64,000 nt of DNA from Bacteroidia bacterium (GTDB lineage Bacteria > Bacteroidota > Bacteroidia > CAIKAF01), in NCBI GenBank assembly GCA_030427255.1, contig JAUHWY010000002.1:124001-188000 (forward strand). The letters are read 5' to 3'. Below are positions 5,514 to 17,980 of this stretch, piece by piece (the first letter of the stretch is position 1; every line of letters starts with the position of its first letter). The position numbers and the translations under genes are program-made. Below the pieces are notes generated by a model. It was not told the DNA's origin and ran no database searches. It was given only the letters and a program-made list of their open reading frames with translations.

Positions 5514-5822
5514 AAAATCTCTACATCCTTTTGATTAACTATTTGATTATTAAGGGCTTTTTAAGACAAAAATCTCTACATGTTGGGATTGGGGTGGGGG
5601 GAAGGGAAAGTTAGATCCTCAGGTAGACGAATTGGATATTTGAGTCTAAAAGAATAAATTTGAGAAGATAAAATCACCCAAATCCTTATGGCCTAAGCCA
5701 AGTTTTGTTTTCCTTAAGACCTAGAAAGTTGTATCATCAATAAAGTTGTGTAATACAAGGGGAGTTGGTAGAAGTATGCACCTAGAACTAGCAAAAATGA
5801 AGATTCAGGCACAATTTAAAAG

Positions 5823-6812
5823 ATGAAAACTACCATCTTCAATAGAATCGTAACAAACGAGAATTCATTCACTGAACTCTTCAGAAATTTCCTGCGCTTT
5901 AAGGCATTCAGACAGTCATTTCTTGGCCTAATAGAAATTGAACTTGACTCGAGCAAGATAGACTATGACGATTTTGATTCACAATTTTCCATTACAAGGT
6001 TCGGAAGACCTGACCTTGCTTTGATAACTGACGATATTGAGATACTTTTTGAAATCAAAGTATATAATACATCCCTAACGGAGAATCAACCTAAAGGTTA
6101 TTACACCTACCTAAAGGAGGATAGTAAAGCAAGAGCAAAAGGACTAATCCTAATTATTCCAGAAAATTATTACGACCTTAAAACATACAATGCCAATCTC
6201 GAAAGTGTCAAAAAGGATACGGACAACATTTTTACCCAAGTCATTCACTGGGAAACCATTTCAAAACTTATCACCGATAACGAGCTCGAAATCACCTCAC
6301 CATTATTCGCTGAATACTCAGAGTTTATTGTTGACTGGTTTCAACTTCGTACAATTTTTTATGACAGCTTAAACACATTTACTATGTTCGGCAAACGTTT
6401 CCCTGAGAGCCTTAAAAAGACAATGGAAATCATCGATAGCCAATATAATAGATTTGGTAATCAAGGCTATAATCTTAAATGGACAAAAGAAAAGCATTTT
6501 TCCGAGTATGGCTTTTATTTTGAAATGCCGGACGACAATGATGCGTTATTTTTTGGTATTTGGCTTACCTATTGGGAAACATCTGGTAAGCCGGTATGTG
6601 TCGCATTGAAAAGCCAATCATCGGAAGTCATTAAGGCTTTTGAGTCAGGGGTTAGTTCTTGTGAATTATATCAACCAAAGCGCCATGGAGATTGGCTTGT
6701 GGCCTACATAGACGAACAAACACTTATGGAAGAGGAATGTGGCCAAAAGATTTCCAAGACCATTTCGGTTATTTTAGAAAAATTGAACATTCAAGCTTCC
6801 AAGGGCAATTAA
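5823..6812 (+). CDS. PD-(D/E)XK nuclease-fold protein
   Basis: 329 residues, no signal peptide or membrane segment. The N-terminal half carries the restriction-endonuclease-like core: Glu18 in NENSFTELFRNFL, then GRPDLAL (Asp64), the E-x-K pair in EILFEIKV (Glu77, Lys79) and a following Gln in TENQPKGYYTYL (Gln89). This resembles the PDDEXK_4 type of nuclease (not verified). The C-terminal half (about 150-329) has no motif I recognise and includes a Trp-rich stretch LKWTKEKHF. It is the first gene of a set on the same strand with a WYL regulator (106 nt downstream) and an AAA-M41 protein. The catalytic residues look intact, so DNA or RNA cleavage is plausible; the target is unknown. Confidence 0.72.
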   Translation: MKTTIFNRIVTNENSFTELFRNFLRFKAFRQSFLGLIEIELDSSKIDYDDFDSQFSITRFGRPDLALITDDIEILFEIKVYNTSLTENQPKGYYTYLKEDSKARAKGLILIIPENYYDLKTYNANLESVKKDTDNIFTQVIHWETISKLITDNELEITSPLFAEYSEFIVDWFQLRTIFYDSLNTFTMFGKRFPESLKKTMEIIDSQYNRFGNQGYNLKWTKEKHFSEYGFYFEMPDDNDALFFGIWLTYWETSGKPVCVALKSQSSEVIKAFESGVSSCELYQPKRHGDWLVAYIDEQTLMEEECGQKISKTISVILEKLNIQASKGN

Positions 6813-6918
6813 GATTTATAAAACTTGCCAAAACAACGGTTTGGAAAAATGCGGGAAGGGTAAGATTTTCTTCCCACCGGAGTTGTTCGGCCTCGTAGAC
6901 TTTAAGATTTGGAAATAT

Positions 6919-7821
6919 ATGTCGAAACATGGAACAATAAGAAGATACACGTTAATAATCGAAAAGATTGGGAGAAATCAATACCCCACATTTGAATTAA
7001 TAAAAGACTATCTTTTTGAACATGGATTTGAAGTTTCTTCAAGGACAATTCAACGAGATATAGAGCAAATCAGATTTGAATTTGGAATCGAAATTAAATA
7101 TGACCGTTCCCGAAGTGGCTATTGCATTGACACCAAGTCCAGCATCAATATGGACAGTTTTCTACGCTTTTTCGAAATAGTCAACACAGCCGAACTTTTG
7201 ACCGAAAGCCTTAAAGAAAGTAAAGACATACTCAATTACATTTCCTTTGAATCGTACGGAGGCCTGAGAGGGATAGAGTACCTAAAACCTTTGCTTTTCG
7301 CAATCAAAAATCACAGGAGTGTTGCCTTTACCCATGAAAACTTTGATTCCGGAAAACAACGTAAATACTTCGTAAGACCTTATTTGCTTAAGGAATATCA
7401 AAACCGCTGGTACTTGGTTGGAGTAATCGGTGACTCAAATGAATTCAGAACTTTCGGCATTGACCGGATTTTGAATTTGGAAGTTCAAAAAGAGGCATTC
7501 AGGCCAAAGGCAAAGATTAATCCGGCTGAGTTATTTGAAAATACGGTTGGCCTAACCTATTCCTTCAATGAACTGGAAGAAGTAGTTCTTTCTTTCACGC
7601 CACTTCAAGCCAAATATGTGAAATCTTTGCCACTACATAAATCACAAGAAATAATTGAGGATAACGAGAAGGAAGTTCAGGTAAGGTTAAGAATCATTCC
7701 AAACTTCGAATTCAAACAAAAAATCATGATGCTCGGGGAAACTGTCAAAGTTATAGAACCCAAATGGCTTGCGAATGACATCAAGGAAAGTTTAACCAGC
7801 GCATTAAAGAATTACAATTGA
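6919..7821 (+). CDS. HTH-WYL transcriptional regulator
   Basis: 300 residues from ATG 6919 (MSKHGTIRRYTLIIEKI); a longer TTG-initiated form is possible but its extra 26 residues look non-native. The N-terminal winged helix (about 10-70) contains SSRTIQRDIEQIRFEFG, the recognition helix pattern of WYL/DeoR-like proteins. The WYL domain follows: ITFTYE-like VAFTHENF, then RPYLLKEYQNRWYLVGV with Trp-Tyr-Leu at 164-166 and TFGIDRIL. WYL domains bind nucleotide or nucleic-acid ligands and regulators of this design (BrxR, CapW) sit beside anti-phage systems. It lies between the nuclease-fold gene and the AAA-M41 gene, so control of that set is the natural inference. Confidence 0.88.
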   Translation: MSKHGTIRRYTLIIEKIGRNQYPTFELIKDYLFEHGFEVSSRTIQRDIEQIRFEFGIEIKYDRSRSGYCIDTKSSINMDSFLRFFEIVNTAELLTESLKESKDILNYISFESYGGLRGIEYLKPLLFAIKNHRSVAFTHENFDSGKQRKYFVRPYLLKEYQNRWYLVGVIGDSNEFRTFGIDRILNLEVQKEAFRPKAKINPAELFENTVGLTYSFNELEEVVLSFTPLQAKYVKSLPLHKSQEIIEDNEKEVQVRLRIIPNFEFKQKIMMLGETVKVIEPKWLANDIKESLTSALKNYN

Positions 7822-7882
7822 TTTCTCACTTCGACATGCTTTGGCGTAGTAAGACAATAGCTTTGTCAAAAAAAATAAAATT

Positions 7883-9928
7883 ATGGCAAAGCAAATCCAA
7901 GCAAGGCACGAGGAAATAGTGCAAAAACAAGAAATACTGGATAAAGCCAAAGTAACCCTTAAAAGGGAATTCATTGGTATTGACCATGTAATTGATGAAG
8001 TGGTAGGTGCTATTAGTTCATGGTATTTATTTCCTGACTTGCAAGAGAAACCAGTTATTATCAATTTATGGGGGCTAACCGGTGTAGGTAAATCTTCACT
8101 GGTAAGTCGGCTTGCCCAACTTATTGATTTTGGTACCAAGTTCTATCATTTTGACCTAGGCGAAAACGACACGGATGGTTGGACCATAAAAGGTCAACTT
8201 GCAAGAATTTACGAAAACGTCAATGGCTATCCGGTTTTATTAGCTTTTGACGAGCTCCAACATGCCCGTACCCTTGACGAAAACGGAAAAGAAATGGACA
8301 AAACGGCTTCCCGCATTATCTGGCAGCTTTTGGATACCGGCCGTTTTCAGATTTCACGGTACAGTTACCACCTTGAAGAACTCCATGACCTTATGCAAAA
8401 ACTTAGGTATTTGCTGAAAAACGGAGTGCGTGTTTCAAAAGGAAAGGTTATTTCAAAAATTGAGTATTTCATTGAGTATATGGATTTGAGAAGGGAGTAC
8501 AAGAAGATTGAAGGTTCAGAAACCAAGCTGGAAACCAACAATGTACTTTTTGTACCGACCTCCTATCATGAAGACATTTTTTCATTAGCAAAAGAAAAGT
8601 TTTCTACATCTTTTGAAGTAAAAGAAATGTTGATGGAACTTAATGGAAATGAAACCCTCAAATTCTTGTTTGACATTTTCTCCATTGGAAACAGCCCCAA
8701 ACCGGTTGACTGTTCTAAAGGCTTGATTTTTGTACTTGGAAATCTTGATGAGGCATACACCATGAGTAATGACTTCAATCCTGATATGGATGCAGACGAG
8801 TTTCACGAACAATCCATGAAAATCAATGTGCCCATCATTAAGAAAGCCCTCAAAAAGCGATTTCGAAATGAACAGATAGCACGGCTTGGGAATATGCACA
8901 TCATTTATCCTGCTTTCAGCAAAAAATCATTCCAAAAAATTATTGAATTGGAGCTGTCTAAAATTGTTGAAAAAGTTAACGCTTATCAAAAAATCAAACT
9001 CCAATTTGACCAATCGGTGCATGATTTGATATACAAGGAAGGGGTATACCCAACACAAGGTACAAGACCCATTTTCACCACCATTCATCAGATTATCCAT
9101 ACAAAACTTGGAAAGGTTATTTCAGAAATGATTTTAAAAAATCTTGTTGTATCAAGCATTATTTTTAAGGCAAAAGACAACTATATATTTGCCGATTATT
9201 ACGATAAGGAATTGAAAATCCATTCACTCTCCTTTCACCAGCAACTGAACCTTGAAAATCTGAGAAAGAACAAACAAGATGATGTTCAAGCAATCACCGC
9301 AGTACATGAAGCCGGACATGTAATTATTTCAGCCATTCTTTTACATACGGTTCCAGAGGTGATTTATTCAAATACCGCAGAAGCCGGAACAGGTGGATTT
9401 GTTTACACCAAATTCAAATGGAAGTACATCTCTCGGAAAGAAATCACAAACCGTCTTGCCTTATTTCTTGGCGGTCTTGCAGCAGAGAAAATCATATTCG
9501 GAGAAGAAAACATTACAACGGGAGCAGAAGAAGACATTGAGAAAGCCACAAATTTCATTACAGTAATGCTGAAACAATGCGGAATGGGGAAACTGCCAGC
9601 GGCTTATCATGCAAAAGACCCGCAGACAAGAAACTATTTACATGATCAAGGCAGTGAACTATGCAGGGAAGCAGAAACATGGATTTTAAAGGCAATGGCT
9701 CTAGCGGAGGAAACCTTGAAGGCGCAAGAAGTTCTTTTGCTGAAAATGGCAGATTACCTAAGCGATAACCGCCAAATTAATAAACAACAATGTTATCAAC
9801 TGCTGGAAAGATATGCTCGCAACTTTGATGGTGATTCGTTAATTGAAAATGGTGATTTGTTGTTTTACCGGAATCATCTCAAAGAGAAAGTTGCAGTACT
9901 TGAATCAGTAACAGAAAGAACATCGTAA
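7883..9928 (+). CDS. AAA+ ATPase (Clp/ClpB type) fused to M41 (FtsH-type) zinc peptidase
   Basis: 681 residues, soluble: there is no N-terminal membrane anchor as in FtsH. AAA+ part: Walker A GLTGVGKSS (64-72), Walker B VLLAFDEL (118-125), a long insertion (about 160-275), sensor-1 region LIFVLGNLDE (281-290), an Arg-rich stretch KKRFRNEQIARLG (324-336), and a small domain IYKEGVYPTQGTRPIF like the ClpB D2 domain, which has GYDPxYGARPL. C-terminal part: zinc site AVHEAGHVI (His475, Glu476, His479), then LFLGGLAAEKIIFGEENITTGAEEDIEKATN (shown in full here as two blocks, LFLGGLAAEKIIFG and TTGAEEDIEKAT), with Asp551 as third ligand. The natural inference is an ATP-driven protease. Follows the WYL regulator by 61 nt. 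Confidence 0.85.
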   Translation: MAKQIQARHEEIVQKQEILDKAKVTLKREFIGIDHVIDEVVGAISSWYLFPDLQEKPVIINLWGLTGVGKSSLVSRLAQLIDFGTKFYHFDLGENDTDGWTIKGQLARIYENVNGYPVLLAFDELQHARTLDENGKEMDKTASRIIWQLLDTGRFQISRYSYHLEELHDLMQKLRYLLKNGVRVSKGKVISKIEYFIEYMDLRREYKKIEGSETKLETNNVLFVPTSYHEDIFSLAKEKFSTSFEVKEMLMELNGNETLKFLFDIFSIGNSPKPVDCSKGLIFVLGNLDEAYTMSNDFNPDMDADEFHEQSMKINVPIIKKALKKRFRNEQIARLGNMHIIYPAFSKKSFQKIIELELSKIVEKVNAYQKIKLQFDQSVHDLIYKEGVYPTQGTRPIFTTIHQIIHTKLGKVISEMILKNLVVSSIIFKAKDNYIFADYYDKELKIHSLSFHQQLNLENLRKNKQDDVQAITAVHEAGHVIISAILLHTVPEVIYSNTAEAGTGGFVYTKFKWKYISRKEITNRLALFLGGLAAEKIIFGEENITTGAEEDIEKATNFITVMLKQCGMGKLPAAYHAKDPQTRNYLHDQGSELCREAETWILKAMALAEETLKAQEVLLLKMADYLSDNRQINKQQCYQLLERYARNFDGDSLIENGDLLFYRNHLKEKVAVLESVTERTS

Positions 9929-9939
9929 ATGAATTCATG

Positions 9940-10370
9940 TACCCAAGCGAGGTATATGCTATCCACTTTTTAACCAATGCATTACTTGAATTTTGGATAC
10001 GCTATCCACTTTTCAACCAATGCATTACCAAAGCGAGGTATATGCTATCCACTTTTTAACCAATGCATTACTTGAATTTTGGATATGCTATACATTTTTT
10101 GACCAATGCATTACCCAACCGAGGTATATGCTATCCACTTTTTAACCAATTCATTACTAAAATTCCGGATATGCTATCCACTTTTTAGCCCTTCATATAC
10201 CAAATTGAGGTATATGCTATCCACTTTTTGACCCCCTGATATACCAAATTGAGGTATATGCTATCCATTTTTTGACCCCCTATAAACCCAAACGAGGTAT
10301 ATGCTATCCACTTTTAAACCAATGCATTATTAAAACTCCGGATATGCTATGCACTTTTTGACCCTTCCAT
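9940..10370. repeat. Ten-unit 43-bp tandem repeat with DnaA-box-like core
   Basis: The motif GCTATCCACTTTTT recurs with the G at 9958, 10001, 10044, 10087, 10130, 10173, 10216, 10260, 10303 and 10346: a 43-bp period with one 44-bp step. Units alternate between GAGGTATATGCTATCC and GGATATGCTATCC starts, mostly as A-B pairs. Seven of ten keep TATCCAC, the core of the DnaA box TTATNCACA. The array begins just after the AAA-M41 stop. It is not CRISPR: the part between cores is also repeated. Confidence 0.85.
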
Positions 10371-10453
10371 CCGTCAGAAAAGCTAAGTTAATGTCGCTCT
10401 GGCACTCGCATGGCTCAAGAAGGTCCTTGTTGGTGGTCTTATAGAATATAAAA

Positions 10454-10680
10454 GCTCCTAGAATGGCCTCCCGCCCCAAACGGAGGGGCCGACCTTGCCC
10501 CAGGCTAGCCGCACTTTGGCGAGGAGGTGGTTTTTAACCCCCGCAGCCTTAGTGCGGCTTGCTTGGGGCATGGGCGCACCACAGTATAGGGGCGGATACG
10601 GAGCTTGCTTTTCCTATGGAAGGAAGGCCCCAATCAAAAACCTCTGGATGGGTGCTGTCCTGCTTCCTTGCTGATTATGC
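10454..10680. repeat. GC-rich intergenic stretch with long hairpin
   Basis: A GC-rich noncoding block between the tandem array and the DUF1016 gene. It contains an imperfect inverted repeat with arms about 10493-10519 and 10547-10570 (TGCCCCAGGCTAGCCGCAC against the complement of GTGCGGCTTGCTTGGGGCA). It belongs by composition and position with the other GC-rich intergenic units in the window. No gene seen in 9929-10807. Confidence 0.55.
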
Positions 10681-10700
10681 CTAGCCTCAAATTTTACCAA

Positions 10701-10757
10701 TAAAATCCACTAAATTTGATTTAAGGGTTGTTTAAAGAAGGCGACCACTTCAAAATT
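10701..10757 (+). repeat. R3 repeat, copy a (3' part only)
   Basis: CCACTAAATTTGATTTAAG followed by GCGACCACTTCA matches the distal half of the R3 repeat family (full copies at 12.0, 15.2 and 15.7 kb). The IS256-like proximal end is absent here. It sits about 50 nt upstream of the DUF1016 gene. Confidence 0.6.
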
Positions 10758-10807
10758 CACTTAATTGTAACACCTGAAGTTGTCATCACGGAAAAATTTA
10801 TAGATTG

Positions 10808-11995
10808 ATGGATAAAGCCTATAAAAAATTTCTCCAACTGGTTAAGGAGCAAATTGAGACTGCTCAGGTGCGCACGGTAACGGCTGCCAATCGAGAAATG
10901 CTTTTGCTCTATTGGAAACTGGGGCATTTAATTCTTGCCCATCAATCACAGAAAGGTTGGGGCGCCAAAGTGGTTGATTTTTTGAGTGAGGACTTGAAAA
11001 AAGAATTGCCCAATCAAAAAGGTTTTTCAATCAGAAATTTGAAATACATGCGGAAGTTTGCATTGCAATATCCGGTACCGATGATTAAAAAATTGAACGA
11101 TGCTTCCAAACGGCTTTTGCAATTTGAACCCACCCAAAAAAGTATTCAAAATATCGTTTCTCAATTTGTGCCACAGGCTGTTGCACAATTGCAAGTTACT
11201 AATTATCAGTTAGATAAAATCGTGCAACAAGGGGTTGCACAAAATGATGATGCTGCTTTTTTATCGTCTGTTATTTTTAAAATATCCTGGTCGCATCACA
11301 TTATTTTGATGGATAAGGAGCCCCATTTTGGCAAACGACTTTGGTACATGCACCATTGTATCGAGCATGGCATTAGTCGAAATATTTTAGCCATGCATAT
11401 TGAAAGTGGGTTGTTTGAACGACAAGTAGAGACCAATAAAGTCACCAATTTTAATAAAACACTTCCTTCTGCTAAATCTGACTTCGCCAATTATCTACTA
11501 AAAGACCCTTACATCTTCGATTTTGTAGGAGCAAAAGAAAAAGCGGATGAAAGAAATATCGAAGAGCAGTTGACCAACCAAGTTGCCAAATTTTTACTGG
11601 AACTCGGAAAGGGTTTCGCTTTTGTAGCCCGGCAGATGCACTTTGAAGTAGGTGGCGATGATTTTTATGCCGATTTGGTCTTTTACCATACCAGATTGAA
11701 GTGCTATGTCATTGTGGAGCTAAAAGCGCGTGAATTCAAACCGGGTGATGCCAGCCAACTTAATTTCTACGTGAACGTGGCCAATGATGTACTAAAAAAG
11801 GAAGGCGACAACGAAACCATTGGTCTTCTGCTTTGTAAGGGAAAAAATGAAGTGGTGGCTGAATATAGTTTAAAGGGCCTTGGCAATGCACTTGGCGTTT
11901 CTGATTATCAAATTTCGCAAGCCGTTCCCGATCAACTTAAATCTGATTTACCTCAAATTGAAGAGATTGAAAAAGAATTTAAAGATATCGACTAA
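10808..11995 (+). CDS. DUF1016 / YhcG-family PD-(D/E)XK nuclease
   Basis: 395 residues from ATG 10808 (MDKAYKKF). The N-terminal helical DUF1016_N region contains the family pattern LLLYWKLGHLI and KGFSIRNLKYMRKFA. The C-terminal nuclease domain has YADLVFYHTRLKCYVIVELK (Asp289, Glu304, Lys306) and ASQLNFY (Gln317), so the PD-(D/E)XK site looks complete. Proteins of this family are small accessory nucleases scattered in defence islands and mobile regions; the exact role is not established. It stands alone between two copies of repeat R3 and has no obvious partner gene. Confidence 0.85.
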   Translation: MDKAYKKFLQLVKEQIETAQVRTVTAANREMLLLYWKLGHLILAHQSQKGWGAKVVDFLSEDLKKELPNQKGFSIRNLKYMRKFALQYPVPMIKKLNDASKRLLQFEPTQKSIQNIVSQFVPQAVAQLQVTNYQLDKIVQQGVAQNDDAAFLSSVIFKISWSHHIILMDKEPHFGKRLWYMHHCIEHGISRNILAMHIESGLFERQVETNKVTNFNKTLPSAKSDFANYLLKDPYIFDFVGAKEKADERNIEEQLTNQVAKFLLELGKGFAFVARQMHFEVGGDDFYADLVFYHTRLKCYVIVELKAREFKPGDASQLNFYVNVANDVLKKEGDNETIGLLLCKGKNEVVAEYSLKGLGNALGVSDYQISQAVPDQLKSDLPQIEEIEKEFKDID

Positions 11996-12010
11996 TGGAT
12001 AAGACAATCG

Positions 12011-12116
12011 GTAATGCCTAAAAGGTGTGTCAAAGGCTTCAGTACCCCAGCAAAACCGAACACCAAGAACCACTAAATTTGGTTTATATTATTTAAAGAA
12101 ACCGACCACCTCAGGA
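12011..12116 (+). repeat. R3 repeat, copy b
   Basis: Starts GGTAATGCCTAAAAGGTGTG and ends CGACCACCTCAGG, with the conserved core CAAAACCGAACACCAAGAAC inside. It matches copies at 15203 and 15694 over about 105 bp. The first 25 bp resemble IS256-family terminal inverted repeats (inference). It lies upstream of the HigBA module. Confidence 0.75.
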
Positions 12117-12261
12117 GTGAAGTGGTTCATAATGTCCGTTGGACAATCGATTGAACGAACAAATGCAGTAACCCTTCTGCAAGATGAGGTTTCAAAAATA
12201 CTGGAACATCACCTTGATTAGTTCGGAAATATTTGATACTTTTATATGTAAATAAAAATCA

Positions 12262-12603
12262 GTGAGATTATATGGAATTAGAATCCTTGAAAAACTGAAA
12301 CGCAAAAATCGAGGAAACGCACCACTTACAAACGCGATTGATGCATTAATTAAAACGATTGAAAAAGAAAATTGGAAAAACCCAAATGAACTGGTTAAGT
12401 CAAGAAGCGATGCTGATTCTGTTCATAGCGAAGGTTTTTACTTTTTTAATATAAAAATTCATAGAACAATGATTTTCATTGAATTTGAAGACGATAGAGC
12501 CACGGTAATTTGGGCAGGATCACATAAAGATTATGAGAAAATATTCCAAAATAACCGGAATGTAATTGAGAAATGGTTAAGGGCGCACAGCTGGATAAAA
12601 TAA
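12262..12603 (+). CDS. higB: HigB-family mRNA interferase toxin
   Basis: 113 residues starting at a GTG at 12262; no in-frame ATG lies upstream. HigB-like blocks: RILEKLKRKN at the N-terminus, then ENWKNPNELVKSRSDADSV, FYFFNIKIHRTMIFIEF and the C-terminal WAGSHKDYEKI, corresponding to the family pattern FVGTHxEYDKI. HigB toxins are RelE-fold ribosome-dependent endoribonucleases. The toxin gene precedes its antitoxin by 7 nt, the toxin-first order typical of higBA. The catalytic lysine and histidine pattern appears kept (Lys in SHKDY). Confidence 0.82.
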   Translation: MRLYGIRILEKLKRKNRGNAPLTNAIDALIKTIEKENWKNPNELVKSRSDADSVHSEGFYFFNIKIHRTMIFIEFEDDRATVIWAGSHKDYEKIFQNNRNVIEKWLRAHSWIK

Positions 12604-12610
12604 TAGGATT

Positions 12611-13165
12611 ATGAAAAACTTGATTGATATAAGAGATGTAAACCAGATCAAAGAATTAAGAAACGAATATGATTTGGAAAAGGCCTCATTACTGGCGAGA
12701 AAACTAAGATGGATGATAAAAGAGGATGCTTCGTTGATACCTGTTAGAGAAAGATTGCTTGACTTAATGGAAGCCTATGAGCATAAGCATTGGAGGGATG
12801 AAAGCAGTATTTCTGATAAGCAAATGGAAGACTCCGATAAAGCAGAAGAAATTATAAATAAAGAAAATCAGTTTTATACTCGAAGAAAAGAAGCGATCAG
12901 GAAGAAACTGAAGCAATATGATATGACTCAACAGGATTTGGGTGCATTGCTTGGGCACAGCAAATCCTATATTTCTGAATTGGTAAATGGGGTGTCAAAC
13001 TTCTCAATGAAAGATTTGGTTATAATACACCGGATTTTCAAAATAAGCTTTGATGTTTTAATTCCTACATTCATTGAAGTTGAAACAAGAGATGAACTGA
13101 AACGGAATATATTGAGATTAAATAAGCCCAAATTAAAATTAAACAAAGTAGATTTAGATGCTTAG
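12611..13165 (+). CDS. higA: HigA-type antitoxin with XRE helix-turn-helix
   Basis: 184 residues. The C-terminal half holds a Cro/C1-type HTH: IRKKLKQYDMTQQDLGALLG then SKSYISELVNG and FSMKDLVIIHRIF (about residues 95-150). The N-terminal about 90 residues are charged and probably form the toxin-binding part. It follows higB directly, so it should neutralise HigB and repress the pair. At 184 residues it is longer than minimal HigA proteins (about 100), matching the long-form antitoxins with an N-terminal extension. Confidence 0.8.
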   Translation: MKNLIDIRDVNQIKELRNEYDLEKASLLARKLRWMIKEDASLIPVRERLLDLMEAYEHKHWRDESSISDKQMEDSDKAEEIINKENQFYTRRKEAIRKKLKQYDMTQQDLGALLGHSKSYISELVNGVSNFSMKDLVIIHRIFKISFDVLIPTFIEVETRDELKRNILRLNKPKLKLNKVDLDA

Positions 13166-13295
13166 AATTGGGTTTGCAGGCTACCTACAACCGCAGGTAT
13201 AGTATGTCCGGGAGTAAGCTTCCCCAAAAATCGAACTAGCAGGAAATTCCAACAGGTTCGAACGGAAAGAAAGAGGAAGAAGGTTGTTAGTACAA

Positions 13296-13350
13296 AATGT
13301 CAAGTTTTTAGCGCCAATAACTTGACATTGCAAAACCATGGCTATCTTTG
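13296..13350 (+). promoter_or_regulatory. abiE promoter with palindromic operator
   Basis: A perfect 11-bp inverted repeat, AATGTCAAGTT (13296-13306) and AACTTGACATT (13319-13329), covers the upstream promoter element TTGACA. The -7 box TATCTTTG follows at 13343-13350 and ends 4 nt before the abiEi ATG, implying a leaderless message. AbiEi antitoxins are known to autorepress by binding inverted repeats, so this is the likely operator. Confidence 0.75.
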
Positions 13351-13354
13351 CATT

Positions 13355-14083
13355 ATGGCATTGGCAAAAGAAATACGCAAACGAATACAACAACTACCCG
13401 AAGGGAAAACCTTTGGGTATGGCGATTTGCGTATTGCCAAAGAAGACTATACCACAGCCGCCAAAGCCTTAGAACGGCTGCAAAAAGAAGGATTGATAAA
13501 GAAAGTTTCCAAAGGGGTGTTTTACAAACCTGAGCAAACCGTATTTGGCGAACTAAAACCCGATTACGGCGAATTGCTCCGCCCTTATTTGTTTGAGAAC
13601 GGTAAGCGAGTGGCTTACGAAACAGGCACTTCACTTTACAATCGTTTGGGTTTAACTACTCAAATGGCATTCCGCATTAAAATTGCCAGTCGAGGAAAAC
13701 GCATCAACATCAATCGGGAAAACCTAAAGGCTGATGCCGTAAAAAGTTATGCCGAAGTGACCGATGGTAATTGGGAGACATTAGGCTTGTTGGATGCATT
13801 CAAAGACATTAAAAAAATTCCTGATTGCTCTGTGGCTCAGGCAATAAGTAGACTAAGGGCCATTGTAAAAGAGCTAAACGAAATGCAAACCGCATGCTTA
13901 CTCAAATATGCTTTGCGATATCCACCAAGAGTGCGGGCATTAGTAGGCGCCATATTGGAAAATTTAGGCAGCAAAGCACAAGGCATTGAAAAGTTAAAAG
14001 AGAGTTTAAACCCACTAACTACCATAAAATTGGGCGTAAAGGAGAGTGAATTGCCCACAAAATCGAATTGGTATATCGAATGA
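13355..14083 (+). CDS. abiEi: AbiEi-type antitoxin (winged-helix, DUF6088-like)
   Basis: 242 residues from ATG 13355; the longer reading frame upstream runs through the promoter and operator and is rejected. The N-terminal winged helix shows KEIRKRIQQLPEGKTFGYGD, TTAAKALERLQKEGLIKKVS and KGVFYKP, the usual AbiEi/DUF6088 start. The middle contains RVAYETGTSLYNRLGLTTQM. It is the type IV antitoxin of an AbiE system and also a DNA-binding autorepressor. Its stop overlaps the toxin start as ATGA, so the pair is translationally coupled. Confidence 0.85.
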   Translation: MALAKEIRKRIQQLPEGKTFGYGDLRIAKEDYTTAAKALERLQKEGLIKKVSKGVFYKPEQTVFGELKPDYGELLRPYLFENGKRVAYETGTSLYNRLGLTTQMAFRIKIASRGKRININRENLKADAVKSYAEVTDGNWETLGLLDAFKDIKKIPDCSVAQAISRLRAIVKELNEMQTACLLKYALRYPPRVRALVGAILENLGSKAQGIEKLKESLNPLTTIKLGVKESELPTKSNWYIE

Positions 14084-15069
14084 GGCTGCACGAAAACATA
14101 GCGCTTTATAAGGATGCTATTCGGTTTACTGCCCAAGAAATGAAGCTAAGGCCCGAATATGTAGAAAAAGACTATTGGGTGACCTTTGCTTTGTTTACCA
14201 TTTTCAATAATGAAATAGGCAAAGACACCGTATTCAAAGGCGGTACCTCACTGTCTAAATGTTACCAAATGATAGACCGATTTTCTGAAGATATTGATTT
14301 GGTGGTGTTAAGGCGTGAAGGAGAAACAGACAGCAAGTTAAAATCAAAATTAAAGACTGTAAGCAAGGTTGTAGAAAGCATTTTACCGGAAGTTCCTATT
14401 GAAGGCATCACCCATAAAATGGGGATGAATAGAAAAACGGCACATTCCTACAACAAAGAATTCAAAGGCGATTATGGGCAAGTAAGAGACGTCATCATTT
14501 TAGAATCTACTTGGTTGGGTTATTATGAGCCTTACACCACCAAAAGCATCATTTCATTCGTAGGGCAAATGATGGTAGATACTCAACAAACCCAAATTGC
14601 TGAAGAAAATAATTTGCTTCCTTTTGATGTAATGGTCTTAGAGCCTATCAGAACCATTTGCGAAAAAATAATGAGCTTGGTTCGTTTTTCTTATGGTGAA
14701 AATCCAATAGAAGATTTAAAGAAAAAGATACGCCACACCTACGATTTGCATCAGCTACTGAAACAAGAGGTGTTTTCAGAATTCTTTCATTCAAAGTCTT
14801 TCGATGAAATGCTTTTGAAAGTAGCCAATGATGATGTGGCAAGTTTCAGGAATAATAATAAATGGCTCATGCACCACCCAAAGGAAGCCCTTATCTTCAA
14901 AGAATTGGATAGGGTTTGGAGTGAAATAAACCCTACTTATTCAGCTGTTTTTAAGAGGTTGGTTTATGGCGAATTGCCAAATGAAGAGGATATATTAGAA
15001 ACGTTAAAAATGATTCAAGAGCGATTGCAATCCATTTCGTGGACAATAATAGTTGAACCCCAAAAGTGA
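14080..15069 (+). CDS. abiEii: AbiEii nucleotidyltransferase toxin
   Basis: 329 residues from the ATG inside ATGA at 14080. The DNA polymerase beta-like nucleotidyltransferase core is clear: KGGTSLSK (53-60) and EDIDLVV with Asp71 and Asp73 as metal ligands. C-terminal helical part contains MVLEPIRTICEKIMSLVRFS and KIRHTYDLHQLL, the usual AbiEii motifs. AbiEii toxins of this fold (with MenA relatives) modify tRNA by adding nucleotides, causing growth arrest during phage infection. Catalytic residues look complete. Confidence 0.87.
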   Translation: MRLHENIALYKDAIRFTAQEMKLRPEYVEKDYWVTFALFTIFNNEIGKDTVFKGGTSLSKCYQMIDRFSEDIDLVVLRREGETDSKLKSKLKTVSKVVESILPEVPIEGITHKMGMNRKTAHSYNKEFKGDYGQVRDVIILESTWLGYYEPYTTKSIISFVGQMMVDTQQTQIAEENNLLPFDVMVLEPIRTICEKIMSLVRFSYGENPIEDLKKKIRHTYDLHQLLKQEVFSEFFHSKSFDEMLLKVANDDVASFRNNNKWLMHHPKEALIFKELDRVWSEINPTYSAVFKRLVYGELPNEEDILETLKMIQERLQSISWTIIVEPQK

Positions 15070-15202
15070 AATTCACAGCGGCGAAATAAGAGCAAGAATT
15101 GAAGTAAGCATTCCGCCAAGCCCATATTCCTAACCTCCAAAAGGCCTCTCAACTTTGGGCAAACCAAAAAAATGTGTCCAAGAAAGATCTAAAACAAGAG
15201 GC

Positions 15203-15309
15203 CGGTAATGACTAATAAAATGTGAAAAGGCTTCAGTGCCCCAACAAAACCGAACACCAAGAACCACTGAATTTGATTTTAATTTGCCTAATAAGGCCGA
15301 CCACCCCAG
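15203..15309 (+). repeat. R3 repeat, copy c
   Basis: Starts GGTAATGACTAATAAAATGT, contains CAAAACCGAACACCAAGAAC and ends GGCCGACCACCCCAG. Same orientation as the other three copies. It falls in the 800-bp gene-free stretch between AbiE and ParDE, which is filled by R3, R1 and R2 repeats. Confidence 0.75.
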
Positions 15310-15316
15310 ACCACCA

Positions 15317-15343
15317 CCGGAATAGCAACCCGTCAACGGTCTC
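15317..15343 (+). repeat. Solo R2-like terminus
   Basis: CCGGAATAGCAACCCG followed by TCAACGGTCTC matches the right end of R2 (36550-36560). A similar solo end, GGAATTGCAACGCG followed by TTAAAGGTCTCC, lies at 16659-16682. No matching left end is seen next to either. Confidence 0.5.
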
Positions 15344-15363
15344 AATTTGGTTTGGGTTTTATT

Positions 15364-15681
15364 GGGCGCCTAATCCGTCTCCGGCCATTAGCTGCCTTGT
15401 GGGGTAGAGACCTGTGATTTATGCCGTTTTCAAGGCAGATTAAGGCGTGGACAAATCGAAAGTCCGCAGTTTACAATTTGTAAATGAGGAACTTGAGGTT
15501 TGGCCACAACGCAAAGATGCCGCCAGAATAGGTGTAAATCAACGGTCTCGTGAAGCTACGCCGCCATGCCTGGCCAAGGGGCTTCCTGTGGTCGCTCTTG
15601 CCCCCACGGCGGCTAAGCACCCCACTTCGGCAGGCTAATTGGCCTCCGCCGGGGCGCTTAAGCTCCGTGTGGGGATTTTCG
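15364..15681 (+). repeat. R1 GC-rich repeat, copy b, interrupted by R2
   Basis: The first part (15364-15406) is the same as the start of R1 copy a at 5337; the second part resumes near 15553 with CTACGCCGCCATG and follows copy a to GGGGATTTTCGGTG. Between them lies element R2. Copy a therefore looks like the unoccupied form of this site. Confidence 0.72.
15407..15549 (-). mobile_element. R2 element, copy a (143 bp, inverted ends)
   Basis: Begins GAGACCTGTGA and ends TCAACGGTCTC, imperfect inverted termini. Its reverse complement aligns with 36394-36560 over most of its length, including TTCGATTTGTCCACGCC and CCTTGAAAAC. It carries no gene and sits inside an R1 unit, so it behaves like a small non-autonomous (MITE-like) element. 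No clear target duplication is visible. Confidence 0.6.
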
Positions 15682-15693
15682 GTGTAAAAAAAT

Positions 15694-15798
15694 GGTAATG
15701 TCTAAAAAAGTGTGTAAAAAGCCGCAGCCCCAACAAAACCGAACAACAAGAACCACTAAATTTTATTTAAATTGACTAAGGAATTCGACCACTTCAGG
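15694..15798 (+). repeat. R3 repeat, copy d
   Basis: Starts GGTAATGTCTAAAAAAGTGT, the best-kept copy of the IS256-like end, and ends TCGACCACTTCAGG. It lies 80 bp upstream of parD, in the same orientation and position relative to the gene as copies a and b. Confidence 0.75.
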
Positions 15799-15839
15799 TT
15801 TGTAGAGAAACTATACTACAGCCCCAAACATTTGAAGAC

Positions 15840-15861
15840 ATACCAATATTTGGTATATTTG
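15840..15861 (+). promoter_or_regulatory. parDE promoter and operator
   Basis: Inverted repeat ATACCAA-TAT-TTGGTAT (15840-15856) partly overlaps the -7 box TATATTTG (15854-15861), 16 nt upstream of the parD ATG. RHH antitoxins such as ParD bind such palindromes to repress their own operon. Confidence 0.68.
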
Positions 15862-15877
15862 AATAATCTAGAACGCT

Positions 15878-16123
15878 ATGAAAAATACATCCGTATCATT
15901 AGGAGATTATTTCGAACAGTTTGTACAAGCCCAAGTTTCCCAAGGACGCTATAAAAATGTGAGCGAAGTAATTCGTGCCGGACTTCGTTTGTTGGAAAAT
16001 GAAGAAAACAAAGCCATCGCTTTACGAAATGCCATTCAGGATGGACTGAATAGTCCCCTGGTAGAAGACTTTGACTTTGACAAAAACCTTAAAAAACTCA
16101 AGAGTGAAAAGAAGAATGGCTAA
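15878..16123 (+). CDS. parD: ParD-family ribbon-helix-helix antitoxin
   Basis: 81 residues. The N-terminus MKNTSVSLGDYFEQFVQAQV and the stretch YKNVSEVIRAGLRLLENEE are the classic ParD RHH domain, which dimerises and binds the operator. The disordered C-terminus (VEDFDFDKNLKKLKSEKK) should wrap the toxin. It overlaps parE by 8 nt. Antidote to the ParE encoded next; likely autorepressor through the palindrome at 15840. Confidence 0.9.
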   Translation: MKNTSVSLGDYFEQFVQAQVSQGRYKNVSEVIRAGLRLLENEENKAIALRNAIQDGLNSPLVEDFDFDKNLKKLKSEKKNG

Positions 16124-16415
16124 AGTTAAACTAAGACAAAAAGCCATTGACGATTTGAAGAACATTTGGGATTATACTTTTGAAAAATGGTCTGAAAAGC
16201 AAGCGGATACTTATTATTCGACCATAAAGCAGGCGTGTTTTGGAATTGGTGAGCATCCGGATGCCGGAAAAGAATATCACGAAATAAGCATAGGCCTTCG
16301 TGGATTAAAAGCCGGAAGGCATGTTATTTTTTATCGGTGGATTTCTGATGAAAGCATTGAAATTGTTAGAATTCTACATGAGAGAATGGACCTTAAAACT
16401 AGGTTAAGCGAATAG
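16116..16415 (+). CDS. parE: ParE-family toxin
   Basis: 99 residues from ATG 16116 (MAKVKLRQKAIDDLKNIWDY). ParE/RelE-fold signatures: AIDDLKNIWDYTFEKWSEKQ, GEHPDAGKEYHEI, LRGLKAGRHVIFYRW and EIVRILHERMD. ParE toxins poison DNA gyrase, whereas related RelE toxins cut mRNA; the C-terminal RILHERMD pattern favours ParE. Third toxin-antitoxin module within about 4 kb. A longer in-frame start inside parD is rejected. Confidence 0.9.
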   Translation: MAKVKLRQKAIDDLKNIWDYTFEKWSEKQADTYYSTIKQACFGIGEHPDAGKEYHEISIGLRGLKAGRHVIFYRWISDESIEIVRILHERMDLKTRLSE

Positions 16416-16486
16416 AAAAAGGGAGACCCTTGCCCCCTTGTGTTTTCAAGTTTATAACCTTGACCGCAGCGTCAGGGACTATGTTA

Positions 16487-16638
16487 CTGATTCCAAGATG
16501 CTGATTCCAAGATGCTGGTTCCAAAATGCTGGTTCCAAAATGCTGACTCGAAAATGCTGACTCGAAAATGCTGACTCGAAAATGCTGACTCGAAGATGCT
16601 GACTCGAAGCGTCAGCACAAAGCGTCAGCACAAAGCGT
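16487..16638 (+). repeat. 14-bp tandem repeat array
   Basis: Nine 14-bp units drift in blocks: CTGATTCCAAGATG (2), CTGGTTCCAAAATG (2), CTGACTCGAAAATG (3), CTGACTCGAAGATG and CTGACTCGAAGCGT, followed by two 13-bp units CAGCACAAAGCGT. It lies in the 395-bp gap between parE and the AAA ATPase gene. The period is not a multiple of three and no frame stays open through it with a start, so it is not coding. Confidence 0.85.
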
Positions 16639-16726
16639 CAGGAACAGGGTCGCCAACGGAATTGCAACGCGTTAAAGGTCTCCATGAGCCAACCCAACCC
16701 ATGAGTAGAAATCTATAAGCGAAATT

Positions 16727-16789
16727 TGCACAACAGAATGAGCAAATTTCTCGAAAATTGCTCAATGCGTTGTGCATTTTGTATCTTTG
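16727..16789 (+). promoter_or_regulatory. Hairpin operator and -7 box of the AAA/DUF4143 gene
   Basis: Imperfect 23-bp inverted repeat, arms 16727-16749 (TGCACAAC then GAGCAA) and 16754-16776 (TTGCTC then GTTGTGCA), with a 4-nt loop and 19 of 23 pairs matching. The -7 box TATCTTTG follows at 16782-16789. The right arm covers the expected upstream promoter element, so an operator is likely; a cruciform or RNA hairpin is possible. Confidence 0.6.
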
Positions 16790-16810
16790 ATGGATTCCAG
16801 TAGCTAGGCT

Positions 16811-17980
16811 ATGACCCATCTGTATCAAAAATTTGAAACGCTTTTACAAAACACACCTTGGCACTTTAAGCGCTATTTGTACGACAAGGTGGCCTGGGAT
16901 AGCCGAATGATTGGAATTATAGGTGCCCGTGGAGTAGGAAAAACTACCATGATTCTGCAGCATATAAAGGAGCAGCTGGATACTAAGAAAGCCCTTTATG
17001 TAGCGGCTGACGATATCTATTTTACCGACAACAAGCTCTTTGATCTAGCCGATGATTTTTTCAGAAATGCCGGAGAATACTTATTCATTGACGAAATTCA
17101 TAAATACCCCGGCTGGTCGAGCGAATTAAAGAATATGTACGACTCCTTTCCGTCCTTGAGTGTGGTATTTACCGGCTCCTCGGTATTGGATATCCTTAAA
17201 GGTTCCTCTGATTTGAGTCGAAGAGCCCTAATTTATACCTTGGAAGGACTATCGTTTCGTGAATATTTGAAATTGTTTCATGACTTTGATAATGAGACCT
17301 ATAGTTTAAGTCAAATCATAAATAATGAGGTAAAACTGAATGCCATTCAACACCCATTGCCCCTTTTTAAGGATTATTTAAAGCGAGGCTACTATCCCTT
17401 TGGACTAGAAAATGAAATGCATTTGCGGCTTGGGCAAGTCATTAACCTAACCTTAGAAACGGACATTCCCCAATATGCCAACCTAAATGTGGGAACGAGT
17501 AGAAAGTTAAAGCGACTTCTTTCGATTATTGCTGAAAGTGTTCCCTTTAAGCCGAATTTTTCCAAAATTTCCGAAATGATTGGGGTAAGCCGGAATTCTT
17601 TAGACGACTATTTCATGTATATGGAAAAGGCAGGGCTAATAGGGCAGTTACGGAATGAAACAAGCGGTTTACGAGGCTTGGGAAAAGTAGAAAAGGTTTA
17701 TTTAAACAATACCAATATCTTATTCAACTTGGTAGGGGAAAAATCCAATGTTGGAAATGTGCGAGAAACATTCTTTTTCAATCAAATGCGCGTAAATAAT
17801 GAAGTCATTTCTTCCAAAAAATCCGATTTTATAGTAGAGGGGTATACCTTTGAGGTTGGAGGTAAGCACAAACAACAAAATCAAGCGACACAAGCGGATA
17901 AATCCTTCATTGTAAAGGACGATATTGAATATGGGTACCGGAACGTGTTACCGCTTTGGGCTTTTGGAATGAACTATTGA
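16811..17980 (+). CDS. AAA_14 / DUF4143 family ATPase
   Basis: 389 residues. AAA_14 domain with Walker A GARGVGKTT (38-46), Walker B EYLFIDEIHK (about 89-98), sensor TGSSVLDI and YTLEGLSFREYL. A winged-helix segment follows (FSKISEMIGVSRNSLDDYF) and then a DUF4143-type C-terminus with EVGGKHKQQNQ, a degenerate PD-(D/E)XK-like strand. These ATPases are abundant, often horizontally moved, and of unclear function, possibly regulators or DNA-repair-related. It has its own promoter and hairpin operator and closes the accessory island. Confidence 0.85.
   Translation: MTHLYQKFETLLQNTPWHFKRYLYDKVAWDSRMIGIIGARGVGKTTMILQHIKEQLDTKKALYVAADDIYFTDNKLFDLADDFFRNAGEYLFIDEIHKYPGWSSELKNMYDSFPSLSVVFTGSSVLDILKGSSDLSRRALIYTLEGLSFREYLKLFHDFDNETYSLSQIINNEVKLNAIQHPLPLFKDYLKRGYYPFGLENEMHLRLGQVINLTLETDIPQYANLNVGTSRKLKRLLSIIAESVPFKPNFSKISEMIGVSRNSLDDYFMYMEKAGLIGQLRNETSGLRGLGKVEKVYLNNTNILFNLVGEKSNVGNVRETFFFNQMRVNNEVISSKKSDFIVEGYTFEVGGKHKQQNQATQADKSFIVKDDIEYGYRNVLPLWAFGMNY

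Follow-up and report, generated by a model that had tools for sequence, protein, structure and literature searches.

ATP-dependent proteases are built from a few fixed pairings of a motor with a peptidase, and the M41 peptidase is normally found with the FtsH motor and at the membrane. In FtsH and in the m-AAA and i-AAA proteases, the M41 domain follows the AAA+ module in one chain and carries a HEAGH motif, an Asp ligand further downstream and the motif AE...FG. Lon joins an HCLR-type AAA+ motor to a C-terminal Ser-Lys peptidase in one soluble chain, and in ClpXP, ClpAP, ClpCP and HslUV a Clp/Hsl-type motor serves a peptidase chamber formed by a separate ClpP or HslV ring. We compared these systems with a 681-residue protein, hereafter AAA-M41, encoded in a Bacteroidia contig. 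We call window the whole stretch of DNA analysed (64,000 nucleotides).

AAA-M41 shares with FtsH, m-AAA and i-AAA the features of the M41 domain listed above, but its motor is of the Clp D2 type, with a D2-small domain and a GTRP/GARP sensor 2. It also lacks their membrane anchor and has an insert before sensor 1. It has in common with ClpB/Hsp104, the D2 modules of ClpA/ClpC and Skd3 (human CLPB) the D2-type fold (Z 22-25), the arginine-finger box, sensor 2 and the D2-small domain, and with Skd3 the presence of only one AAA+ module. It differs from these proteins by the absence of the D1 ring, N-domain and M-domain, by a short pore loop 1 without GYVG, by an insert of 78-174 aa and by a covalently attached peptidase. 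Like Lon, it is a soluble single polypeptide in which a motor, putatively of HCLR type, precedes a peptidase, but the peptidase is of the M41 zinc type. Like ClpXP and its analogues, it associates a Clp/Hsl-type motor with a peptidase, whereas this peptidase is fused and zinc-dependent. The gene occupies exactly positions 7883-9928 of the window on the + strand, from ATG to stop, and has the following features.

7883..9928, + strand: AAA-M41 fusion protein, 681 aa (ORF, Pfam, 53-sequence alignment)
7883..9202, + strand: Clp/ClpB-D2-type AAA+ module, residues 1-440 (profile search, fold comparison at Z 22-25, hhalign)
8069..8098, + strand: Walker A WGLTGVGKSS, residues 63-72 (K70 in 52/52 members covering the position)
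8231..8266, + strand: Walker B PVLLAFDELQHA, residues 117-128 (D123 in 53/53, E124 in 52/53)
8354..8698, + strand: insert of ~115 residues, residues 158-272 (secondary structure of the AlphaFold model)
8723..8758, + strand: sensor 1 LIFVLGNLDEAY, residues 281-292 (N287 in 53/53)
8846..8896, + strand: arginine-finger box ALKKRFRNEQIARLGNM, residues 322-338 (R334 and E330 in 53/53; aligned to ClpB FRPEFINRID)
8918..9130, + strand: Clp D2 small (lid) domain, residues 346-416 (PF10431, ClpB_D2-small, E 1.2e-9)
9050..9076, + strand: sensor 2 PTQGTRPIF, residues 390-398 (R395 in 53/53; aligned to ClpB GARP)
9284..9799, + strand: M41 zinc peptidase, residues 468-639 (PF01434, Peptidase_M41, E 3e-19)
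9305..9319, + strand: HEAGH zinc-binding and catalytic motif, residues 475-479 (H475, E476 and H479 in 53/53)
9533..9535, + strand: Asp551, predicted third zinc ligand (53/53)

The protein thus delimited has a single AAA+ module (residues 1-440) and a complete M41 peptidase (~465-640). In Pfam, the large AAA domain had no match at the gathering threshold, and the Ser-Lys peptidase domain of Lon (S16) was not found, M41 being found instead. The protein scores far below the NCBIfam cut-offs for both the FtsH equivalog (TIGR01241, 63.3 bits for a cut-off of 600) and chaperone_ClpB (42.9 bits for a cut-off of 1232). Its AlphaFold model, built with the 53-sequence alignment, has a pLDDT of 87.8 and a pTM of 0.78. 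AAA-M41 is an extra gene, because the genome also encodes an FtsH of its own as well as several further proteins of Clp type.

We then searched for the affinities of the motor half. A profile of residues 1-440 matched ClpE, Hsp104, ClpC, ClpB and ClpA among PDB sequences (E 6e-19 to 1e-7), and FtsH was absent from the best 60. Against reference proteins, the AAA profile matched the Clp D2 modules strongly and Lon and ClpX weakly; none of the five FtsH references was matched at E<=10. The alignment by hhalign reached 99.0% with Clp D2, in 289 columns spanning 14-439, and 74.9% with the AAA of FtsH, in 92 columns of the P-loop region only. Comparing the fold of residues 1-452 of the model retrieved Skd3, ClpC, ClpB, ClpA and ClpX at Z 22-25, and the best 50 entries were all Clp-type. 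Torsins were not among the best rows of this comparison, an absence that carries no evidential weight. Motifs also align, with the family's RFRNEQIARLG opposite FRPEFINRID of ClpB, and GTRP opposite GARP. The profile, hhalign and fold comparisons show that the AAA half is a Clp/ClpB-D2-type motor. The other half is an FtsH-type M41 peptidase: its profile matched the M41 domains of FtsH, YME1 and AFG3L2 in the PDB (E 4e-37 to 9e-25), and hhalign gave 99.9% with the M41 of FtsH. The zinc ligands of M41 are the two His of HExxH and one Asp (PMC12994072), and all three, including Asp551, are invariant across 53 members of the family.

A preliminary description, made from the sequence alone, had proposed a soluble fusion of a Clp/ClpB-type AAA+ module with M41, and this held on profiles, hhalign, fold comparison and hydropathy. 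No membrane helix was found in the protein, as had been claimed: its maximal Kyte-Doolittle 19-residue mean is 1.45, versus 2.32 in the FtsH of E. coli and of the window genome. The claim of a full M41 site in the C-terminal part was also confirmed (H475, E476, H479 and Asp551 in 53/53), as was that of an insertion of ~110 residues (~115 in this protein). The assignment of the ATPase to the HCLR/Clp clade was upheld in part. The motifs on which it relied are present (TQGTRPIF at 391-398, GNLDE at 286-290) and the likeness to Clp D2 stands. Among the features of the HCLR clade, the sensor 2 R395 is found in 53/53 members and strands 154-157 and 273-276 are predicted; their pairing was not measured, and the AAA tree is unresolved. 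That description had named two outcomes that would refute it. One, a C-terminal part unlike M41, was not observed. The other, a grouping of the AAA part with FtsH, was not observed by profile, hhalign or fold; the family is a separate clade in the AAA tree, though the test of that tree leaves the matter less settled (see below). Finally, the proposed swap of motor, giving a distinct soluble protease architecture, held computationally, with protease activity remaining inferred. The fusion of a Clp-type motor to M41 without a membrane anchor is established by computation.

The fusion is not restricted to the window. Scanning genome contigs revealed three relatives (84, 59 and 47% identity), and whole-genome searches added six bacterial ones, making 10 bacterial loci in all; ~1% of the sampled Bacteroidota genomes carry AAA-M41. 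Profile scans of IMG/VR gave 53 loci at first and 80 in the second scan. The IMG/VR contigs encode 68 distinct full-length proteins, all with the AAA and M41 parts and HExxH, and many sit on T4-like jumbo-phage genomes. Two points had escaped the preliminary description: phage contigs carry most of the family, and the bacterial copies are usually paired with a WYL regulator. An assembly chimera, a frameshift or chance can be rejected, the same fusion being present in many independent genomes. Conservation was counted on 53 aligned full-length members, all of which match PF01434 (PF10431 in 41/53). D123, N287, E330, R334, R395, H475, E476, H479, E535, G547 and D551 are invariant, and position 124 is Glu in 52 members and Asp in one. 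Walker A and B, sensor 1, the arginine finger, sensor 2, HExxH and the third ligand being conserved in 52-53/53, the ATPase and zinc sites are intact. This widespread and strictly conserved exchange shows that motor and M41 peptidase can be recombined; it offers a natural test of the motor's contribution to proteolysis by M41, and it reveals a protease that giant phages carry. Four label changes between bacterial and phage copies are needed in a tree of 51 members, at least two of them on well-supported branches, and the direction of transfer between phages and bacteria is not resolved.

No full-length member was found in INPHARED or PLSDB at the sensitivity used. Three candidates were discarded. 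The 'FtsH' of Pseudomonas phage 30-3 and an 'AAA family ATPase' of a Brevibacillus plasmid are ordinary membrane FtsH, unmatched by the AAA profile, and INPHARED MT835498 is FtsH-like and outside the family. PA5oct-type jumbo phages such as 30-3 (L185) encode an ordinary membrane-anchored FtsH, distinct from AAA-M41. The open-licence PMC literature that we searched contained no description of this architecture, which is also unmentioned in the passages that key terms retrieved from an FtsH review. An earlier description is not excluded by such a search, but a soluble M41 protease with a Clp motor is probably undescribed.

The insert is mostly helical and lies just before the sensor-1 strand, flanked by the predicted strands 154-157 and 273-276. 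It is retained by all members, with lengths from 78 to 174 (median 108). Clp proteins carry a short pore-loop-2 hairpin just before sensor 1, and pore loop 2 is named as lining the ClpX channel (PMC7112952). The insert occupies this pore-loop-2 position; its location at the channel is inferred, in the absence of a hexamer model. The GYVG-type pore loop 1 of Clp is absent from the family and the stretch is shortened, with an aromatic residue or His somewhere in it in 42/53 members. Threading may therefore be weak or use other residues. This shortened loop is the main weakness of the threading model.

The bacterial copies have a recurrent neighbour, and the window copy belongs with it to a larger segment.

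6841..7821, + strand: WYL/WCX-domain transcriptional regulator, 61 bases upstream of AAA-M41 (Pfam WYL, E 3e-14)
5593..13196, no strand assigned: accessory segment with the WYL regulator, AAA-M41, a YhcG-type nuclease and HigBA (blastn of flanks)

The WYL regulator is present at 7/10 bacterial loci and missing from three. It diverges in step with the protease: the identities of regulator and protease to the window copies are 86 and 84% (L004), 65 and 59% (L005), 44 and 50% (L006), 35 and 35% (L017), 32 and 27% (L016), and 30 and 33% (L018). A genome of the same genus (G004) kept both flanks and AbiE, and lacks the segment 5593-13196 (blastn of flanks). Another genome, related only at the phylum level (G277), has an 84% identical copy of AAA-M41. 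Together, these two observations indicate lateral transfer. PADLOC matched the WYL neighbour chiefly to generic CRISPR-associated WYL models. The window positions 5593-17787 form a variable, defence-like hotspot between conserved housekeeping genes, containing the YhcG-type nuclease (PDC-S02), HigBA, AbiE and an AAA_14/DUF4143 protein. Positions 5823-6812 encode a 329-aa protein that resembles PD-(D/E)XK nucleases by eye and has no Pfam or PADLOC match.

We propose that AAA-M41 is an active soluble ATP-dependent zinc protease. This is likely given the above, with activity, hexamer, threading and clients all inferred. One Clp/Hsp100 D2-type AAA+ ring, probably hexameric, would unfold client proteins, which would then pass into an M41 chamber to which each of these subunits contributes its C-terminal domain. 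In phages, the protease would probably be part of a proteostasis or host-takeover set. In bacteria, it is a mobile accessory module, usually WYL-paired and probably used in phage-host conflict. The evidence for the latter role is circumstantial, and we find it as easy to doubt as to accept. If bacterial copies do act against phages, they would represent a new type of effector. A bolder reading makes AAA-M41 the degradative partner of phage-encoded DnaK/DnaJ in some phages, a WYL-controlled conflict module captured by some Bacteroidota, and its insert a selector or gate, specific to the family, at the exit of the channel. Taken as one joint claim, it could go either way.

Several alternatives must be weighed against this proposal. 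AAA-M41 could be a divergent FtsH without its anchor, the likeness to Clp being convergence or noise. In favour of this, the M41 half resembles that of FtsH, a full-chain Foldseek search has FtsH at the top by E-value, and an AU test on the AAA tree does not reject a grouping of the family with FtsH (p 0.34), although the tree shows the family as its own clade (99/97) apart from that of FtsH (100/99). FtsH and Lon are poorly aligned around sensor 1 in the alignment of this tree. Against it, the AAA profile leaves FtsH unmatched at E<=10, hhalign aligns FtsH at the P-loop only and Clp D2 over the whole module, D2-small domain included, and the best fold entries are all Clp-type. Furthermore, the full-chain matches to FtsH have an rmsd of ~12-17 angstroms, compared with 3.7 for the ClpB D2 4fct. 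We reject the divergent soluble FtsH on profile, hhalign and fold; this alternative is largely refuted and all but excluded. One could also regard the AAA part as a regulatory switch similar to torsins, which would gate the M41 peptidase or assemble it instead of threading substrates. The loss of the canonical GYVG loop, the large insert at the pore-loop-2 position and matches to Pfam Torsin in 21/53 members would fit such a switch. But the family retains the Walker B Glu, sensor 1, the arginine finger and sensor 2, as a hydrolysing ring should, and most members (42/53) still have an aromatic residue or His within the stretch of pore loop 1. We consider the switch unlikely.

The two other alternatives concern the bacterial copies only. 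They could serve in anti-phage defence and not in proteostasis, as a module in which WYL is the sensor and the protease is the effector. The co-diverging regulator at most loci, the neighbouring YhcG-type nuclease, HigBA and AbiE, and the variable hotspot favour this idea. On the other hand, most of the relatives come from phage contigs, and housekeeping genes flank some of the bacterial copies (L014, L015 and L016). A defence role is only circumstantial because no PADLOC defence-system model matches the protease; it also has no experimental support, and we lean slightly against it. Alternatively, these copies could be phage genes in decay that have no function in the host, as might be suggested by their interspersion among phage members in the tree (the four label changes) and by the copy of L006, split over two ORFs. 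However, the majority of bacterial copies are intact and have every catalytic residue, and the WYL partner is retained in several lineages, which makes decay very improbable. Some bacterial loci have other neighbours. At L015:7074-11155, RtcB, a PrfH-like release factor (RF-1 domain) and AAA-M41 are in tandem, and the PrfH-like gene overlaps AAA-M41 by 14 bases, which suggests translational coupling with this ribosome-repair pair. At L019:2609-5574, the gene of a DUF4407 membrane protein, which could be a separate membrane anchor, overlaps AAA-M41 at its start. At L017:11028-12023, the WYL regulator and AAA-M41 are separated by the gene of a 331-aa protein that has no Pfam match.

Returning to the soluble protease that we favour, its phage copies occur in distinct genomic contexts. 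The terminase model had matches on 13/40 records, with sizes up to 548 kb. In one contig (L041), genes for an SbcD-like protein, a late sigma factor, a UvsW-type helicase and an SbcC-like protein (gp46 type) precede AAA-M41, the SbcC-like gene being the last of the four, and a sliding clamp lies downstream. In another (L066), AAA-M41 comes directly after the clamp loader. Five contigs (L033, L034, L035, L036 and L070) have AAA-M41 followed by DnaK, DnaJ, a Nudix gene and then an IF3-like gene, with sigma-like genes also following on four of them. These assignments rest on Pfam for L033 and for single genes of L034 and L070, and on similarity clustering for the rest. On these five contigs, AAA-M41 would act together with the phage DnaK/DnaJ. 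The conserved run of genes itself constitutes a phage-encoded chaperone and expression cassette, found on jumbo-phage contigs.
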